DNA from: Gammaproteobacteria bacterium
Lineage (GTDB): Bacteria > Pseudomonadota > Gammaproteobacteria > Steroidobacterales > PWYM01
Direction of reading: 5' to 3'
Length of the DNA: 44,801 nt
NCBI GenBank assembly: GCA_003567475.1
Contig: PWZL01000102.1
Coordinates: 67,132-111,932 of the forward strand
This document shows, in pieces, positions 2,132-43,271 of this stretch. The position numbers and the translations under genes are program-made. The notes below the pieces were generated by a model. It searched no databases. It was given only the letters and a program-made list of their open reading frames with translations, and was not told the DNA's origin. Position 1 is the first letter of the stretch, and every line of letters begins with the position of its first letter.

Positions 2132-2349
2132 CTGAGACTCGTGCCACTGCATTGGGCCGCGCGGCGTCCGGCGGCCTCGTTGTTATGACGCTCATGACCG
2201 GGCTGATGCTGCTCGCCGGCTGTGGCCAGAAGGGGCCGTTGTATCTACCCGAGCGCACACCCATCGAAATCGGTGCTCGCGAGAACGATGCTGTGCAGGA
2301 AGACGACGAAGACGAGGATCGTGACGATACGCGGGACCCACCACCGTGA
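2128..2349 (+). CDS. lptM: LptM-like small lipoprotein (LPS translocon maturation)
   Basis: This is a 73-residue lipoprotein. A hydrophobic stretch ends in the lipobox LLAGC (C32), followed at once by GQKGPLYLP, the hallmark of LptM/YifL. In E. coli LptM helps LptD form its native disulfides in the outer-membrane LPS translocon. The mature part ends in a highly acidic Asp/Glu tail with no recognisable fold. The first ATG gives an N-region longer than usual, so an internal ATG about 20 codons in could be the real start. The gene overlaps its neighbours by 4 bp on both sides (ATGA and GTGA), which suggests strict coupling to polA. Confidence 0.85.
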   Translation: MTETRATALGRAASGGLVVMTLMTGLMLLAGCGQKGPLYLPERTPIEIGARENDAVQEDDEDEDRDDTRDPPP

Positions 2350-5048
2350 ACAGCGGTGATGCCCCGCTGATTCTGGTCGACGGCTCCTCTTACCTCTACC
2401 GCGCCTTCCACGCCCTGCCGCCGCTTAGCGCCGCCGACGGCACGCCGACCGGTGCGGTGCTGGGCGTCGTGAACATGCTGCACAAGCTCATCGATGACTA
2501 CTCGCCCGAGTACCTCGCGGTGGTGATGGATGCGCCCGGGCCGACCTTCCGCGACGAGCTGTTCGCCGAGTACAAGGCCAACCGGCCGTCGATGCCTGAT
2601 GAGCTGCGCGCGCAGATCGAACCGCTGCTGACGGCGGTGCGCGCGCTGGGGTTGCCGCTGCTGCGCGTCGAGGGTGTCGAGGCCGACGACGTGATCGGCA
2701 CGCTGGTGCGTCGCGCCGGCGAACAGGGCAGGGAGGTGCTGGTCTCGACCGCCGACAAGGACATGGCCCAGCTGGTCAGCGAGGGCGTACGCCTGGTCAA
2801 CACCATGACCGGCAAGGTGCTGGACGAGGCCGGCGTGGTGGAGAAATTCGGTGTCCGGCCCGACCAGGTGATCGACTGGCTGGCGCTGGTCGGCGACAGC
2901 TCGGACAACATCCCGGGCGTACCCCGGGTCGGAGCCAAGACCGCGGCCAGGTGGCTGAACGAATATGACAGTGTCGCTGAGCTCATCGAGCGCGCGGGGG
3001 AAATCGGCGGCAAGGTCGGCGAGAGCCTGCGCGCGCACCTGGAACAACTGAAACTCTCCCAGCAGCTGGCCACCATCCGCACGGACGTGGAGCTCGACCT
3101 CGGCCCGGAGGCCCTGCGCCGCGGTGAGCCGGACAACGCGACGCTGCGGGAACTGTTCAGCCGCCTGGAACTGGTCTCGTTGCTGCGGCGTCTACCCACG
3201 GAGGCGGCGGGCGAGGCTGCGCCCTCCCATGCGGATGTCGAGCGTCGCTACGAGACAGTGCTCGACATGACAGCGTTCGAAGCGTGGCTCGAGCGCATCG
3301 AGGTCGCTGAACTCACGGCACTGGACACCGAGACCACCAGCCTGGACTACATGCAGGCCGAGCTGGTGGGCCTGTCGCTGGCGGTGACGCCGCATGCCGC
3401 CTGCTACATCCCGCTCGACCACCGGTATCCGGGTGCGCCCGATCAGCTCGACCGCGAGACCGTGCTCGCGCGGCTGAAGCCCTGGCTGGAAAATGCCGAG
3501 GCTGCCAAAGTCGGTCACCACCTCAAGTATGACGCGCACGTCCTCGCCCACTACGACATCGAGCTCCGGGGCCAGCGCTATGACACCATGCTCGAGTCCT
3601 ACGTGCTGAACAGCGTGGCGACCCGCCATGACATGGACTCGGTGGCCGGCCGCTACCTCGGTGTCCAGACGACCCGCTACGAGAGCATCGCCGGCAAGGG
3701 CGCGAAGCAGATCGGCTTCGAACAGGTGGCGCTGGAGCAGGCCGCGCCCTACGCCGCCGAGGACGCCGACATCACGCTGCAGCTGCATCTCGCGCTGTGG
3801 CCGAAACTCGAGGCCGAGGGCCGACTGGCCGACGTCTATCGAGACATCGAGCAGCCGTTGGTCCCGGTGCTCACGCGCATGGAACATTTCGGCGTGCGGG
3901 TGGATCGCAAGCGCCTGCAGCGCCAGAGCGGCGAGCTCGCCGAGAAGATGGCGGCTGTGGGTGAACAGGCGTGGGCGGCGGCCGGCGGTGAATTCAACCT
4001 CGGCAGCCCCAAGCAGCTCCAGGAGATCCTGTTCGAACGTCAGGGCCTGCCCGTGCTGCGCAAGACGCCCAAGGGCCAACCCTCCACGGCGGAGGACGTG
4101 CTTGCGGAACTGGCGGAGGACTACGAGCTGCCGCGACTGATTCTCGAGTACCGCAGCCTCGCCAAGCTGAAGTCCACCTATACCGACCGGCTGCCCGAGA
4201 TGATCAACCCGCGCACCGGGCGCATCCACACGTCGTATCACCAGGCGGTGGCGGCTACCGGGCGGCTGTCGTCGTCGGACCCGAATCTGCAGAACATCCC
4301 GATACGCACACCGGAGGGCCGGCGCATCCGCCAGGCGTTCGTCGCCCCGGAAGGCCTGCGCCTGATCGCCGCCGACTACTCGCAGATCGAACTCAGGATC
4401 ATGGCGCATCTGTCCGGGGACGAGGCCCTGCTGGAGGCGTTCGCCCTGGACCGCGACATCCACCAGGCCACGGCAGCCGAGGTATTCGGTGTCGAGCTCG
4501 AGGCGGTGACCGCTGAGCAACGGCGCTCGGCCAAGGCCATCAACTTCGGGCTGATCTACGGCATGTCCGCCTTCGGCCTGGGCCGACAGCTCGGCATCCC
4601 CCGGCACGAGGCGCAGCACTACGTCGACACCTACTTCGAGCGCTACCCGGGCGTGGCACGCTATATGGAAGACACGCGGCGCAAGGCCCGCGAGGACGGC
4701 TACGTGGAAACCGTGTTCGGCCGTCGGCTGCATCTACCCGAGATCAACGCGCGCGATGCCCAGCGGCGTCAGTACGCCGAGCGTTCAGCCATCAACGCGC
4801 CGATGCAGGGCACTGCCGCCGACATCATCAAGCGCGCCATGATCGAGGTCGATGTCTGGCTGCAGTCCGGTGCCACCCAGGCACGACTGATCATGCAGGT
4901 GCATGACGAACTGGTGCTCGAGGCGCCAGAGCACGAGGCCGATGAGCTTGCGCAGGCGCTGGCGGCGCGGATGGAGGCTGCCGCCGAGTTGCGCGTCCCG
5001 CTGCGGGTGGAGGCCCGGCACGGGGCCAACTGGGACGAGGCCCACTGA
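2346..5048 (+). CDS. polA: DNA polymerase I
   Basis: This is a full-length family A polymerase of 900 residues, used in Okazaki fragment processing and repair. It starts at GTG, overlapping the lptM stop. The N-terminal 5'-nuclease domain has VDGSSYLYRAFHA and the helix-hairpin-helix region GDSSDNIPGVPRVGAKTA. The 3'-5' exonuclease appears active: Exo I is LDTET (about residue 325), Exo II is GHHLKYD and Exo III is YAAEDAD. Polymerase motif A is AADYSQIELR (about 676), motif B is KAINFGLIYG (about 730) and motif C is QVHDELVLE (about 852). No key residue is missing. It is the last gene of the leading plus-strand run. Confidence 0.98.
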   Translation: MNSGDAPLILVDGSSYLYRAFHALPPLSAADGTPTGAVLGVVNMLHKLIDDYSPEYLAVVMDAPGPTFRDELFAEYKANRPSMPDELRAQIEPLLTAVRALGLPLLRVEGVEADDVIGTLVRRAGEQGREVLVSTADKDMAQLVSEGVRLVNTMTGKVLDEAGVVEKFGVRPDQVIDWLALVGDSSDNIPGVPRVGAKTAARWLNEYDSVAELIERAGEIGGKVGESLRAHLEQLKLSQQLATIRTDVELDLGPEALRRGEPDNATLRELFSRLELVSLLRRLPTEAAGEAAPSHADVERRYETVLDMTAFEAWLERIEVAELTALDTETTSLDYMQAELVGLSLAVTPHAACYIPLDHRYPGAPDQLDRETVLARLKPWLENAEAAKVGHHLKYDAHVLAHYDIELRGQRYDTMLESYVLNSVATRHDMDSVAGRYLGVQTTRYESIAGKGAKQIGFEQVALEQAAPYAAEDADITLQLHLALWPKLEAEGRLADVYRDIEQPLVPVLTRMEHFGVRVDRKRLQRQSGELAEKMAAVGEQAWAAAGGEFNLGSPKQLQEILFERQGLPVLRKTPKGQPSTAEDVLAELAEDYELPRLILEYRSLAKLKSTYTDRLPEMINPRTGRIHTSYHQAVAATGRLSSSDPNLQNIPIRTPEGRRIRQAFVAPEGLRLIAADYSQIELRIMAHLSGDEALLEAFALDRDIHQATAAEVFGVELEAVTAEQRRSAKAINFGLIYGMSAFGLGRQLGIPRHEAQHYVDTYFERYPGVARYMEDTRRKAREDGYVETVFGRRLHLPEINARDAQRRQYAERSAINAPMQGTAADIIKRAMIEVDVWLQSGATQARLIMQVHDELVLEAPEHEADELAQALAARMEAAAELRVPLRVEARHGANWDEAH

Positions 5049-5100: not shown

Positions 5101-7656
5101 TCAGAACCGCCAGGTCGCCGTCGCACCCACCTGGCGCAGGTTCGGCAGCGTTACCCCGAAATCACGAATGAAAAAGGGGTTGAAGCCGGCGAAGGGACTG
5201 CCGCCGAGCGGGGGCTGCCCGGGCGGCAGGCCCGGCTGGCCCGCATCGACGTACCGCAGCACGTCCACTGGCGTGCGGTCGTTGAAGGCGTTGTTGACGA
5301 ACACCGTGAAGGTCCACTGATCCGCGTCCAGGCCCGCGCGGAAATTCCACAGGTTGCTGCTGCCCATTTTTGCCAGGTTGTGGACCTGGACATAACGTGA
5401 GCCCTCGATGCTGTAGTCCGCGCGGAAAAAGAACTCCGGATTGCCGGCAATCAGATTCACCGGGTTGCGGAACGTCGCCGAGAGCGTTCCCGAGTGCCGC
5501 GGCACGCGGGGCAGCTGGTTACCCGACACGTCCCCCGCCGCCAGATACGCCTCCAGACAGGGCCCGACGCAGGGCACGATCGGGGCCCCGGCCGGATAGT
5601 CGGTGAAGATCAGGTCGGCCTGGTCGAGGCTGAAGAACTCCTTGATCTCGCTGTCCATGACCGACCAGGTCGCACGCACGTCCCAGAACTCGTTCAGCAC
5701 GTAGCGGAATTCGGCCTCGAAGCCCTTGACCTCGCTCTTGCCGAGGTTGCGGGTGTAGGAGGTGACGAACTGACCGCCACCCTCCTGGGCGGTGGCCTGG
5801 TTCTCGGTCAGCTGCTGATTGCTCCAGTCGATGTAATACGCCGAGAGATTGAACAGGCCACGACCCTCGGCGAAGGTCGACTTCAGGCCGATCTCCCAGG
5901 TGTCCGCTTCTTCTTCCTCGAAGCTGGACAACCCCTGCTCGCGCAGCAGCTGGCGCGCCTGCGGCGTCAGCCGCGCGCTCTCCACCCCGGAATTGAAACC
6001 GCCCGGCTTGTTGCCGCGGGCCCAGAGCGCATAGAGCGTGACGTCCGGATTCAGCAGGTAAGTGACCGTGAAGCGGGGCAGGAAACTGCTGAAGGTTTCG
6101 CTGAGATCGAACGGATTGCTGCAGCTCACGCTGAACACCGGCGCACCGGGAAACAGCGGGGTGTTGGTGCAGAACTCGCTGCCGGGCGTCGGCGTCGGTG
6201 CAGCCCGGTTGAAGTTGGAGACCCCGTTGGCGCTGACCTTGTCGCGGGCGTAACGGCCCTCGGCGGTCAGCGTCAGCTGCTCGTTGAGGTCGAATTCCAC
6301 CATCGCGAACAGGGCCTGGTTCTCGACTTTCGCGCCGCCCTGCTGCGGCGTGAGTTCCGCCGGTGCGCCGGTGGCCACCGTCCCGGAGAGATCGCCGGAG
6401 AAGCGATCGCCGTCCTTTTCGTTGTAGTAATACAGGCCGGCCAGCCAACGCAGACGCTCGTCGCGCGGCGAAAGGATCTTCAGCTCCTGGCTGTAATCCC
6501 GGGCGCCTTTCTCGCGGCTGATGGTCTCGAATCCGCCGCCGGCGCCGCGGATCCCGGAGTAGTCCTGGTCGACGGCGCTGTACAGCGAAGTGTCGTTGTA
6601 GGCGGAGACGGCGCTCAGCTGATAGCCGTTAAGGTCCCAGTCGAGGCTGAGGCTGTAACGGAAGGCCTCGCGCGTCAGCCCGGCGTCGAAGCCCGCCTCG
6701 GCGAACCCGTCGGTGTTCAGCGCGAGCGGTGTCGGCGCGCCGAGGGTGCCACAGAAATACCCGCGCTGGCGCGTCGAGTAGATCGGCGTGCCGGTGAAGG
6801 GCGGGCCGGAGACGCCCACCTGGGTGGGCAGGAAGCAGTTGTTGTTGTCGCTGCCGAACAGCGTGATCGGGAAGTGCTCGTCGTCGTTGCGGGTCCAGTT
6901 GAAGCGCAGCATGGCCTCGAAAGACTCCGTGGGCAGCCAGTAGAGCGTGGCGCCTGCCGAGCGCGTTTCCTGGCCCCCGACATCCTTCCGACCGGTGACG
7001 GTGTTGCGGTAGTAGCCATCGCGCTCGAAGAAACGCGCATTGGCCTGGAACAGCAGCTGATCGCCGATCAGCGGGCCGCCAATGTTCGCGGCCGTTTCCA
7101 GCCAGCCATTGTCGCCCACGGTCCCGGTGACCCGGCCGCTGAGCTCGTCCCCCGGCCGGCGGGTGACATAGTTGATCGCGCCCGCGAAGGTCCGCCGACC
7201 ATACAGTGCGGCCTGCGGCCCACGGATCACCTCGACGCGCTCGAGGTTGTCGAGGTCATAGCCACTGATCGAGCCCGACACGAAGATGCCATCGATGAAA
7301 AACGAGGCATTGGGCTCCCCCTGGATATTCGACTGGCCGCGAATGACCGGCCGGTCACCGGTGCGCCCGAACGCCGACCGGAACGAGAAACCGGGGGTTT
7401 GCTGGGCGAGGTCTTCCACCGACCGCAATCCGGCGTTTTCGATGTCCTGCGCTGTGAACGCGCTGATCGACAGCGGCACCTCCTGCAGCGACTCCTCGGT
7501 GCGACGGGCGGTGACGACGATCTCTTCCAGGCCACGGGCACCGGCCTGCTGGGCCTGGACCAGGCCAGGCAGGGCGGCGAGCGGCACGGCGACGGCGGCC
7601 GAGACGGCCAGCAGACGGCGGACCGACCTGCGGATGATGTTCGGTGTGACAGACAT
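5101..7656 (-). CDS. TonB-dependent outer-membrane receptor
   Basis: This 851-residue receptor has a Sec signal peptide ending in VQAQQ, a TonB box (EEIVVTA, about residues 44-50), a plug domain with the RGQSNIQGEP and YGRRTFAGAINYVTRRP motifs, a 22-strand-type barrel and a C-terminal aromatic residue (TATWRF). It imports a ligand across the outer membrane using the TonB-ExbBD motive force. The sequence type (EEIVVTARRTEESLQEVPLSISAF) is the broad group common in sphingomonads and in gammaproteobacteria that live on complex organics, not a clear siderophore receptor. The ATG has a strong GGGGAGAG ribosome site. No cognate inner-membrane transporter is adjacent, so the substrate is unknown. 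Confidence 0.95.
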   Translation of the reverse strand: MSVTPNIIRRSVRRLLAVSAAVAVPLAALPGLVQAQQAGARGLEEIVVTARRTEESLQEVPLSISAFTAQDIENAGLRSVEDLAQQTPGFSFRSAFGRTGDRPVIRGQSNIQGEPNASFFIDGIFVSGSISGYDLDNLERVEVIRGPQAALYGRRTFAGAINYVTRRPGDELSGRVTGTVGDNGWLETAANIGGPLIGDQLLFQANARFFERDGYYRNTVTGRKDVGGQETRSAGATLYWLPTESFEAMLRFNWTRNDDEHFPITLFGSDNNNCFLPTQVGVSGPPFTGTPIYSTRQRGYFCGTLGAPTPLALNTDGFAEAGFDAGLTREAFRYSLSLDWDLNGYQLSAVSAYNDTSLYSAVDQDYSGIRGAGGGFETISREKGARDYSQELKILSPRDERLRWLAGLYYYNEKDGDRFSGDLSGTVATGAPAELTPQQGGAKVENQALFAMVEFDLNEQLTLTAEGRYARDKVSANGVSNFNRAAPTPTPGSEFCTNTPLFPGAPVFSVSCSNPFDLSETFSSFLPRFTVTYLLNPDVTLYALWARGNKPGGFNSGVESARLTPQARQLLREQGLSSFEEEEADTWEIGLKSTFAEGRGLFNLSAYYIDWSNQQLTENQATAQEGGGQFVTSYTRNLGKSEVKGFEAEFRYVLNEFWDVRATWSVMDSEIKEFFSLDQADLIFTDYPAGAPIVPCVGPCLEAYLAAGDVSGNQLPRVPRHSGTLSATFRNPVNLIAGNPEFFFRADYSIEGSRYVQVHNLAKMGSSNLWNFRAGLDADQWTFTVFVNNAFNDRTPVDVLRYVDAGQPGLPPGQPPLGGSPFAGFNPFFIRDFGVTLPNLRQVGATATWRF

Positions 7657-7905: not shown

Positions 7906-8685
7906 TCAGTCGGCCGGCAGGCGCCGGAGCTGGACCACCCAGTCGTCTTGCCCGAGTTCATCGTCATTGACCGCGGCGAAGCTCTTGTTGCGAGCCGCCG
8001 GCTCGGTCAGCACCGCGATGGTCAGCCGCGCCACATCCGCGCGGGAAATCGCCGCCCTGCGGTAGTCCTCGCGGCGACTCAGGCGGATGCCACTGCGCAA
8101 GGCAGGACCGTCCACCAGCCCCCCGGGGCCGATGATGGTGTAGTCCAGACCGCTGGCCCGCAGGTAGGCCTCACCCTTGGTCTTCCAGAACAGCACATAG
8201 CCGAGACGCGGATTGTCGCGATGGTCGCGGTGGGGGCCTGCGGCGGCGGAAGACACCAGCACGAAATGCCGCACGCCTGCCGCAGCCGCGGCGTCCACCA
8301 GGTTGCGGACCCCGCCATAGTCCACGAAACGCGGGCTGTTCTCGCCGCGCCACTCGCGTGCGCCAATGGCGCTGATCACGTATTCGGCCCCGACCATGGC
8401 GGCCACCACGGCCTCGGGATCGCGCACGTCGACTTCCAGCCAGTCGATTTCAAGACCGGTGCGCTCACGGGCGTGGAAGGCGTTGGTGGTCAGCGGACGG
8501 ACGCGATAACCCTGGTCGAGCAGCTGCGAGACCACCTGCCGGCCGGTCTTGCCGGAGGCGCCCGCCACCAGCACCACCGGACCTGCCGCGATCACCGGCT
8601 CCGGGGGGTTGGTCGGGTCCGCGCCATGCGCCGTGACGAACGTCAGCGACATCACCAGGACGCCCAGCCACTGCCATCTGCGCAT
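7906..8685 (-). CDS. exported NAD(P)-binding (NmrA/atypical SDR-like) protein
   Basis: This 259-residue protein has a Rossmann nucleotide-binding start, VVLVAGASGKTGRQVV, followed by a YVISAIGA strand and LVSSAAAG. This is the pattern of atypical short-chain dehydrogenases (NAD(P)H-binding, NmrA/BVR-B-like) that lack a clear YxxxK pair. The start is the ATG at 8685, preceded by a G-rich ribosome site. Upstream codons are open but would run through the sRNA locus and lack similarity. Unusually, the N-terminus MRRWQWLGVLVMSLTFVTAHGA looks like a signal peptide or membrane anchor, which is odd for an NAD(P)-dependent enzyme. It is probably an oxidoreductase or redox-sensing protein of unknown substrate. 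It lies upstream of, and may be cotranscribed with, the TonB receptor gene. Confidence 0.82.
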   Translation of the reverse strand: MRRWQWLGVLVMSLTFVTAHGADPTNPPEPVIAAGPVVLVAGASGKTGRQVVSQLLDQGYRVRPLTTNAFHARERTGLEIDWLEVDVRDPEAVVAAMVGAEYVISAIGAREWRGENSPRFVDYGGVRNLVDAAAAAGVRHFVLVSSAAAGPHRDHRDNPRLGYVLFWKTKGEAYLRASGLDYTIIGPGGLVDGPALRSGIRLSRREDYRRAAISRADVARLTIAVLTEPAARNKSFAAVNDDELGQDDWVVQLRRLPAD

Positions 8686-8733
8686 GCCACCCCCCCCTGT
8701 GTTCTCACCCGATCGCGAGCATTCCCGCCGCAC

Positions 8734-8763
8734 GGGAACTCGGCCCGCCGGCAAAAGTCTCAA
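8734..8763 (+). promoter_or_regulatory. candidate sigma-E-type promoter of the sRNA
   Basis: GGAACTC (8735-8741) resembles the extracytoplasmic sigma-E -35 element GGAACTT. After a 16-bp spacer comes TCTCAA (8758-8763), close to the -10 form TCTGA/TCAAA. Spacing is as expected for sigma-E promoters. The implied start at about 8769 coincides with the first base of a stable hairpin. No sigma-70 promoter of comparable quality is visible here. Confidence 0.5.
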
Positions 8764-8768
8764 CGCTT

Positions 8769-8903
8769 GAGTGCTACCCCTGCACTCGTGGTCCGCAACC
8801 CTCCCTTGTGCGGGCCCGCTGCCCAGCAACCCCACGCTGGGAATTGCGCCCCGGAGTGGCTCGGTGCGGCGACGTGCCGCTGGCCCCCGGGGCGGTTTTT
8901 TTT
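8769..8903 (+). ncRNA. candidate small RNA in the Spot 42/ErsA position next to engB
   Basis: The predicted transcript is about 135 nt. Hairpin 1 pairs GAGTGC (8769-8774) with GCACTC (8782-8787), loop TACCCCT. Hairpin 2 pairs CCGCA (8793-8797) with TGCGG (8809-8813), loop ACCCTCCCTTG. Hairpin 3 pairs CCCAGC (8822-8827) with GCTGGG (8836-8841), loop AACCCCAC. A terminator rod then pairs CGCCCCGG (8847-8854) with CCGGGGCG (8887-8894), with inner stem GCGGC/GCCGC, followed by eight T (8896-8903). The three C-rich loops could pair with Shine-Dalgarno sequences. Known: spf and ErsA lie between polA and engB and run towards engB, and ErsA is sigma-E (AlgU) dependent and of similar length. Inferred: this is a functional relative. 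I did not see direct sequence identity. Confidence 0.6.
8847..8903 (+). terminator. Rho-independent terminator with no annotated gene upstream
   Basis: A perfect 8-bp GC stem encloses a second 5-bp stem (GCGGC 8866-8870 with GCCGC 8876-8880) and a short GGC/GCC pairing, then an uninterrupted run of eight T. Its polarity is plus strand, while the genes on both sides (NAD(P)-binding protein and engB) are on the minus strand. It must therefore end some other transcript, which is the main argument for the sRNA. Confidence 0.8.
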
Positions 8904-8958
8904 GCTGCGTCGACACTGCGGCATGCCCCGGGGGTTTGCAAGCCCGCGAATCAATGCC

Positions 8959-9594
8959 TCAGTCCGCCGGCCGCGGGGTGGCCAGCCTGGCCTCCGGCAC
9001 CGGCATGAGGCTCTCCAGCGCCAGGCGAGCCTCCTCGACCCCGTGGCGTGTCAGCGCCGAGAACAGCTGCACGCCTCCAGCGCTCGAGCCAAACTCGCGG
9101 CGCACCTCGGCCAGGGTGCGTGCCCCCGCAGCGCGGCTGAGCTTGTCAGCCTTGGTCAGCAGGATATGGACCGGGCAGCTCGCGCCCGCCGCCCAGGCCA
9201 GCATCTGGCGATCGTAATCCATGAGGCCACGACGGCTGTCGACCACCAGAACAAGGCCGGTCAGGGCGCGACGTCCGCTGAAATAGGCCTCCATCAGCGT
9301 GCGCCAGTGGCGCTGCATGGCCTCCGGCACCCTGGCGAAGCCGTAACCGGGGAGATCGACCACCCTGCGCCCTCCTGGCACGGCGTCATCGAGGGCAAAA
9401 AAATTCACCAGCTGGGTTCTCCCCGGGGTCCGGCTGACGCGCGCGAACTGGCGTCGGCCGACCATGGCGTTGAGCGCACTGGACTTGCCAGCGTTCGACC
9501 GCCCGGCGAATGCGACTTCCATGCCCTCGTCGGGCACAAACTGGCCCGGGCTATGGGCGCTCGTCAGAAAGCATGCGGCGGGATAGGCTGACAT
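8959..9594 (-). CDS. engB: ribosome-biogenesis GTPase YsxC/EngB
   Basis: EngB is an essential Era-like GTPase needed for large ribosomal subunit assembly. All G motifs are visible: G1 GRSNAGKSS (residues 31-39), the G2 region SRTPGRTQ, G3 DLPGYG, G4 TKAD and a G5-like FSALT. The 211-residue length is typical. The chosen ATG has GGAG a few bases upstream. Longer in-frame readings run into the cytochrome c4 promoter and add no conserved sequence. The gene is divergent from cytochrome c4, as in Pseudomonas, and its 3' end faces the candidate sRNA terminator 55 bp away. Confidence 0.96.
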   Translation of the reverse strand: MSAYPAACFLTSAHSPGQFVPDEGMEVAFAGRSNAGKSSALNAMVGRRQFARVSRTPGRTQLVNFFALDDAVPGGRRVVDLPGYGFARVPEAMQRHWRTLMEAYFSGRRALTGLVLVVDSRRGLMDYDRQMLAWAAGASCPVHILLTKADKLSRAAGARTLAEVRREFGSSAGGVQLFSALTRHGVEEARLALESLMPVPEARLATPRPAD

Positions 9595-43001: not shown

Positions 43002-43053
43002 GACCGGCCCGGTGTTGCCCTCCGCAACACGTGGTGCATGCTTGAGGCCGGTC
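43002..43053 (-). promoter_or_regulatory. expression platform of the cobalamin riboswitch
   Basis: GACCGGCC and GGCCGGTC (43002-43009 with 43046-43053) form a perfect 8-bp outer stem. Inside it GTGTTGC and GCAACAC (43012-43018 with 43024-43030) close a loop that reads GGAGG on the minus strand. The outer stem uses the last bases of the aptamer (AGACC), so formation of this structure and closure of the aptamer should exclude each other. No T run follows and btuB starts about 110 bp later. Confidence 0.6.
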
Positions 43054-43216
43054 TACGGGCTCACGCGCGATGCAGCAGCTGCATCCGGCGGACCACCTTC
43101 CCATGCGCACGCACAGTGGTGTCAGGCCAGCCTTGACGTCGTTTACCGTTGCGGGGGCAGCACCGGAATTGTGCAAAGTGAGCGCTCTGCACGCACCGGT
43201 TTCCCGATTATTTCCG
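43046..43216 (-). promoter_or_regulatory. cobalamin riboswitch (B12 aptamer) of btuB
   Basis: Read on the minus strand, the conserved order is present: AATAATCGGGAAACCGGTG at the 5' side, then TCCGGTGCTGCCCCCGCAACGGTAA (given in parts: CCGGTGCTG, CCCCCGCAACGG), the B12-box-like CACCACTG, TGGGAAGG, and GAGCCCGTAGACC at the 3' end. These match the cobalamin element (GGGAA..GGTG, GCTG-CCCGCAAC-GGT, GCCACTG, GGGAAGG, AGACC). B12 binding should switch off btuB expression. Confidence 0.9.
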
Positions 43217-43271
43217 CGCTAGGCGGAACACCTCAAGCGGGGTGGAAACTAGCACGCACGAAACCGCAGGG

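Follow-up and report, generated by a model that had tools for sequence, protein, structure and literature searches.

The window, by which we mean the whole 44,801-nt stretch of DNA that was analysed, comes from a 3.06-Mb draft genome in 102 contigs, and the gammaproteobacterium that hosts it is represented by draft genomes only. An unannotated candidate RNA gene occupies the gap between two minus-strand genes, encoding an NAD(P)-binding protein and the GTPase EngB, and the locus is laid out as follows.

2346-5048, plus strand: polA, DNA polymerase I, the upstream anchor of the locus (Pfam DNA_pol_A, 547.6 bits)
5101-7656, minus strand: TonB-dependent receptor gene, between polA and the RNA (Pfam TonB_dep_Rec_b-barrel and Plug)
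7906-8685, minus strand: NAD(P)-binding (NmrA-like) protein gene, divergent from the RNA (Pfam NAD_binding_10, 141.8 bits)
8735-8741, plus strand: -35-like element GGAACTC, sigma-E-type (from the sequence and its relatives)
8758-8763, plus strand: -10-like element TCTCAA, 16 nt after the -35 element (from the sequence and its relatives)
8769-8903, plus strand: predicted small RNA (sRNA) of about 135 nt, its start placed from the promoter and its end from the T8 run (match to model R3 at 8767-8843)
8769-8787, plus strand: hairpin 1, loop UACCCCU at 8775-8781 (RNAfold; stem general in the family, C-rich loop less so)
8788-8819, plus strand: hairpin 2, loop ACCCUCCCUUG at 8798-8808, carrying CCUCCC (RNAfold and alignment)
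8822-8841, plus strand: hairpin 3, loop AACCCCAC at 8828-8835 (RNAfold and alignment)
8847-8903, plus strand: terminator hairpin (8847-8894) and T8 (8896-8903), with a loop, GCGA, that is not C-rich (RNAfold)
8959 (stop) to 9681 (start codon provisional), minus strand: engB, ribosome biogenesis GTPase, convergent with the RNA (Pfam MMR_HSR1; placed likewise in 61 of 61 engB loci that bear a match)

The original prediction had put an sRNA at the spf/ErsA locus, known in gammaproteobacteria as lying between polA and engB. This is accurate for engB, which adjoins the RNA, and less so for polA, which ends at 5048 with two genes intervening, so that the window RNA is not directly downstream of polA, the placing by which Spot 42 is recognised. 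Direct reading and RNAfold agreed with the predicted coordinates, loops and promoter spacing throughout. Folding of the plus strand from 8765 to 8905 returned exactly the three C-rich loops that had been claimed, together with the terminator hairpin. GGAACTC-N16-TCTCAA is present with its predicted start, G8769, 6 nt past the last base of TCTCAA and precisely on the first base of hairpin 1, and a plus-strand terminator with T8 does lie at 8847-8903 between two minus-strand genes. The observation of a promoter, three hairpins and a strong terminator hairpin with T8 before engB is confirmed.

The plus-strand fold reached -72 kcal/mol (z -3.05), a value as low being found in none of 200 shuffles; the minus-strand fold of the same stretch gave a z of -1.79, with 4 of 200 shuffles as low. 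When 135-nt dinucleotide shuffles were folded, three loops holding CCC arose in 6 of 1000, and three loops with CCCC, CCTCC or CTCCC in none of 1000. A simple scanner applied to 8300-9300 reported neither a sigma-70 promoter nor a terminator; it demands an unbroken stem and a short loop, which the window terminator does not have. A T-run between two genes, preceded by a long GC-rich hairpin able to stop transcription, could in principle be a mere transcription terminator region that yields no free RNA product. However, the T8 follows its hairpin on the plus strand while both neighbouring genes are on the minus strand, and termination has no need of three extra hairpins that covary, of loops that are conserved or of a promoter motif ahead of them, and we give this reading very little credence.

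Close relatives were compared within the genus. Four other genomes of the genus were available, three of which gave a good engB match, and all three (G003, G001 and G002) carry the RNA; the fourth, G004, gave a weak engB match and was left out of the judgement. Identity to the window over the stretch is 85% in G003 and 74% in G001. All four copies, the window included, keep the GGAAC box, the TC box and the T-run, with GGAACTC and TCTCAA in both G003 and G001, and GGAAC and TCACAC in G002; their loops hold CCCC, CCTCCC and then CCCC or CCCCC. Promoter, loops and terminator, which had been expected to persist in close relatives, are therefore conserved in all four genus members examined. Among these copies stem 1 passes from GAGTG/CACTC to GAGCG/CGCTC and stem 3 from CAGC/GCTG to CGGC/GCCG, joint changes by which pairing is kept. 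A first plain DNA search had matched 6 of 59 genomes, namely the window's own, two of the genus and three with short pieces outside it.

The same four copies bear on whether the stretch encodes a small protein, or belongs to an extended minus-strand reading frame that includes the NAD(P)-binding gene. In the window and G003 no stop interrupts any of the three plus frames across the RNA; the first frame is likewise uninterrupted in G001, and in G002 as far as the T-run, so that one frame runs open to the terminator in every genus copy; on the minus strand a 336-codon frame with a GTG start reaches 8916. Against coding, stops fall in two of the three plus frames in G001 and in two of the three within the hairpins in G002, the substitutions preserve base pairs, and hairpins 1-3 span 77, 77, 78 and 71 nt in the four copies, which leaves one copy out of step with a length difference not divisible by three. 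We regard a coding function as highly improbable.

Three covariance models were built, R1 from 16 sequences (alignment A2), R2 from 102 aligned copies (alignment A3) and R3 from 12 sequences outside the window's genus. All were limited to hairpins 1-3 because the first full-length alignment placed the terminators badly, and their E-values are rough. In A2 pairing holds in 97.2% of the cells, both partners vary in 9 of the 18 pairs, and the covariation score was reached by 0 of 500 shuffles; when the partner was slid by one column, pairing fell to 45% or less. One of five covariation measures, the number of further pair types, was reached by 47 of 500 shuffles. In A3, which was fitted to the model and leans towards it, all 18 pairs change on both sides, in 310 cells as against 66 in shuffles, and one covariation measure was reached by 1 of 500 shuffles.

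The place beside engB was assessed in 72 engB loci, made up of the window, 69 further genomes (with the window, the best 70 of 117 by engB match) and two named contigs. R1 matches an RNA in 59 of the 72 at E <=0.01, and two further matches, at E 0.025 and 0.095, bring the total to 61 of 72. In each of these 61 located matches, the two weak ones included, the RNA is antiparallel to engB with its end at most 700 nt away (median 79 nt), and the window RNA shares this placing, antiparallel to engB and within 700 nt of its 3' end. Sixteen of the 72 sources are R1 training sequences, originally chosen by loop motif, and R3 was built without the genus for the reason that R1 contains these 16 of the sequences tested. 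R3 finds the window RNA at 8767-8843 with 50.6 bits (E 1.6e-7), as against 12.2 bits for its second-best match there; it also finds all four genus copies, and an RNA in 43 of the 56 engB sources outside both training sets. R1 detects a single copy of the RNA in the window's genome, a second place scoring 16.2 bits (E 8.6). The window RNA is not a product of chance: four genus members keep it, its stems covary, and a model free of the genus finds it.

The family extends well beyond the genus, which, together with the engB placing, supports the earlier claim of an sRNA gene at the spf/ErsA locus. In a class sample of 370 genomes, R1 matches 93 at E <=0.01 and R2 matches 161 at E <=0.05. The class loci retrieved were those of the 93 R1 genomes except G195, G321, G470 and a second place in G226, and do not include the extra R2 matches. 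polA before the RNA, engB after it, or both are found in 82 of the 102 (both 46, engB only 26, polA only 10); 4 of the others lie in the opposite direction, towards polA, and 16 have neither gene in the DNA examined, which for most was up to about 1.5 kb on each side. R2 was also run without filters on 40 polA-downstream loci, from genomes without an R2 match in the class search, and on the E. coli locus, and 4 of these 41 matched at E <=0.01, which indicates that the filtered class search misses some copies. When these 40 loci were taken with those of G260 and G355, at least two C-rich loops before a T-run were present in 10 of the 42 and a looser promoter motif in 15, with either in 17 and neither in 25. 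A phylum-wide R2 search matched 5 of 249 genomes, the window's own included, with one outside the class at E 0.005; among the 25 genomes listed of the 249, 24 belong to the window's own class, its own genome included, and this search accordingly says little about other classes.

Copy number varies within the class. Two genomes of one family, G267 (L175 1192-1903) and G360 (L158 1501-2393), each hold four tandem copies between polA and engB, with the sigma-E-type motif exactly as written before 7 of the 8, and some other class genomes give two or three model matches.

Conservation of the loops is uneven. Among the 102 aligned copies, loop 2 has CTCCC in 99 and loop 3 has CCCC in 92, figures into which conservation is partly built since the first sequences were chosen by loop motif. 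Loop 1 has CCC in 39 and CCCC in 10, four of these ten being the genus copies, and the terminator loop, assigned from a crude fold that stopped at the first T-run (2 copies are without one), has CCC in 64. The idea of three loops as a conserved set did not hold in the form proposed: the hairpin 1 loop is less general, and in the 64 copies a terminator loop with CCC replaces or accompanies it. The window, with GCGA, does not share the C-rich terminator loop that is the majority feature of the family. Within the genus, the window, G003 and G001 have the C-rich hairpin 1 loop and no C-rich terminator loop, and G002 has both, making four C-rich loops in all. This reads as a move of the third C-rich loop from the terminator to hairpin 1 through a four-loop stage, with a direction that four genomes do not fix.

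The sigma-E-like promoter is the best-supported part of the earlier idea. Its motif, GAAC[TA]-N14-18-T[CT][TAC], was sought in the 75 nt before the RNA and is borne out in 82 of the 102 aligned copies, compared with 16 of 405 control windows taken from farther upstream and 3.6% of windows after shuffling; at the order level it precedes 54 of 61 copies. Among the 20 aligned copies without the motif as written, several are one letter off (GAAACTTT) and others appear sigma-70-like by eye. In L017, L033 and L037 a sigma-70-like CATAAT stands in place of the motif, and control of the RNA may have been switched in this group. Those three relatives lend some weight to the view that the promoter likeness is non-functional and that a housekeeping sigma factor makes the RNA, as may be so in the few CATAAT copies. 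This is unlikely for the window, given the frequency of the motif at both levels against 4% in controls, the fit of the window copy to it, and the scan of 8300-9300, in which no sigma-70-like site was detected. We infer that the window RNA is transcribed, and a factor of the sigma-E type would be its probable driver, as judged from the sequence.

The window RNA passes none of the Rfam models of sX13, ErsA, anti-hemB and Spot 42 and is consequently filed under none of them. On the window, the Spot 42, ErsA and sX13 models gave no match even at E 10. The original prediction is supported in part: the sRNA gene at the spf/ErsA locus and its sigma-E-like promoter stood, the three loops as a conserved set did not. 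Weak Rfam matches in the gap (sR40, isrK, mir-9279, suhB and ncS54) were taken as chance.

By anatomy the RNA resembles sX13, and its promoter resembles that of ErsA. sX13 (RF02232) was found after polA in G357 and G126 (124.5 and 103.2 bits), where it folds with loops CAUCCCCU/CUUCCCCU, CCUCCCCA/ACUCCCCA and then UCCCCCU. Like the family, it lies downstream of polA, and its three C-rich loops correspond, in order, to those of hairpins 2 and 3 and the terminator; many class members have the same letters CCCCAAG at hairpin 3 and the same UCCCCCU loop in the terminator. It differs in that the R2 score does not exceed 9.6 bits at either sX13 locus, and in that the 115-nt Rfam sX13 starts inside the would-be hairpin 1. 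The window RNA also has three C-rich loops, but in hairpins 1-3 and none in the terminator. In the sX13 paper, mutation established a functional role for loops 2 and 3, both a C-rich loop and a G-rich mRNA site proved necessary for the tested reporters to be repressed, and the RNA acts without Hfq; it increases in high salt, at 37 C and in minimal medium, and not with H2O2, cold or the absence of nitrogen (PMC3771888).

ErsA (Pseudomon-1, RF01719) was found after polA in G260, a PrrF-bearing genome, with 121.3 bits, GTTGAACTT-N-GTCATA upstream, and C-rich last two loops, GCCCUA and CCCCUCCCCCAAC. It is sigma-22 dependent according to PMC5819304, and it has in common with the window RNA a sigma-22/sigma-E-type promoter, assigned in the window by motif. 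On the G260 locus R2 reaches 12.1 bits at best, over a span extending beyond the ErsA terminator. The window RNA has no counterpart to the U-rich unpaired middle domain described for ErsA in PMC8575079, its hairpins adjoining one another in the fold. The two papers disagree on the control of amrZ by ErsA, which is Hfq-independent in PMC5819304 and Hfq dependent in the later PMC8575079. A pattern from the ErsA probe published in PMC7565897 was absent from 40 polA-downstream loci.

The nearest relative at the Rfam level is anti-hemB/ncS04 of Burkholderia (RF02837), the cut-off of which is passed by 3 of 40 class copies scanned (L087, L095 and L096, all beside engB); no other Rfam family matched in these 40 loci, 37 of which had no Rfam match at all. 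The window scores 19.9 bits against a cut-off of 49.5 and does not pass; a search of its own genome ranks four other places above it and does not list the RNA locus, while the G002 copy, at 33.2 bits, is the best match of its genome. In PMC5688073, ncS04 is an expressed 105-nt RNA (Table 1) whose level is unchanged in the seven conditions of Table 2, none of them a direct envelope stress.

Spot 42 (RF00021) occupies the corresponding locus in E. coli, where the order is polA > spf > < yihA (engB). It is unlike the family, with no model match either way (none for R2 at E 10 on the E. coli locus) and no C-rich hairpin loops by eye. Within spf, an E. coli RefSeq record annotates a short protein-coding feature (L183 1519-1566) called 'spot 42 RNA', apparently a naming error that was carried over. 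Model scores do not join the sX13, ErsA and E. coli loci to the family; the grounds for proposing a single family are the locus, the order of the loops and the promoter.

Building on the computed structure, covariation, family, place beside engB and conserved promoter motif, we interpret 8735-8903 as a free-standing gene for a trans-acting envelope-stress sRNA of about 135 nt, with a sigma-E-type promoter and C-rich loops that cover ribosome-binding sites, and we put the probability of this reading at roughly 0.74. The RNA would be transcribed from a promoter of the sigma-E (RpoE/AlgU) type, starting near G8769 and ending at the T8 terminator. Its rigid stems would hold short C-rich loops open, above all CCUCCC and ACCCCA and here also UACCCCU, and under envelope stress these could pair with G-rich ribosome-binding regions of mRNAs and lower their translation. 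The CCUCCC of loop 2, which we take to resemble the anti-Shine-Dalgarno end of 16S rRNA, would on that account suit purine-rich ribosome-binding sites. The CCCC loops are so plain that the choice of targets is hard to see. That the loops act on mRNAs is suggested by analogy with sX13, for which loops and target sites were mutated by others.

On the minus strand at 8686-8700, the start codon of the divergent NAD(P)-binding gene is closely preceded by a G8 run that is complementary to the C-rich loops. As a target next door it was rejected: the run is G5 in G003, is replaced by GGAGGGG before the likely start in G001, and is missing in G002.

Several like loops on one RNA are a known layout of sponges, and a real sRNA could act by sequestering a protein, Hfq or another, with the C-rich loops serving as protein sites rather than mRNA-pairing sites. 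ncS04/anti-hemB is said to bind Hfq (PMC5688073), but the loops of hairpins 2 and 3 differ, each being conserved for itself, and sX13 needed matching G-rich mRNA sites (PMC3771888). We think a sponge improbable, and prefer pairing with mRNAs.

In PMC3771888 the sX13 gene is reported from Xanthomonadaceae only, and the authors asked whether polA loci elsewhere encode sRNAs that act alike. The wide reach of the family, with 161 of 370 class genomes matching R2 and the promoter motif before 82 of 102 copies, bears on this question. The literature searched, which covers part of the journals, included no paper treating both sX13 and ErsA; a single paper there mentions three of six names of these families, sX13 and anti-hemB not among them, and an sRNA 'downstream of polA' was met there in the sX13 paper alone.

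These comparisons suggest that several separately described small RNAs may be versions of one old regulator. In a fuller form of the idea, to which we give even odds, a single RNA with C-rich loops and sigma-E control became fixed between polA and engB at an early stage of the Gammaproteobacteria (which include the Burkholderiales in GTDB). From it would descend sX13, ErsA, anti-hemB/ncS04 and the RNA of the window, Spot 42 being either a replacement or an extreme form, and the window's genus would have moved the third loop from the terminator to the 5' hairpin via the four-loop form still present in G002. If the loops act as in sX13, this would be an old and widespread stress regulator that uses plain C-rich loops against ribosome-binding sites, and it would allow a direct test of target choice under so simple a pairing code.

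Elsewhere in the window, a cobalamin riboswitch lies on the minus strand at 43029-43250 (105.5 bits), the sole Rfam match at the gathering cut-off in the whole window. It stands at the start of a minus-strand frame, judged by eye to be TonB-dependent receptor-like, which looks like an ordinary B12 uptake gene.
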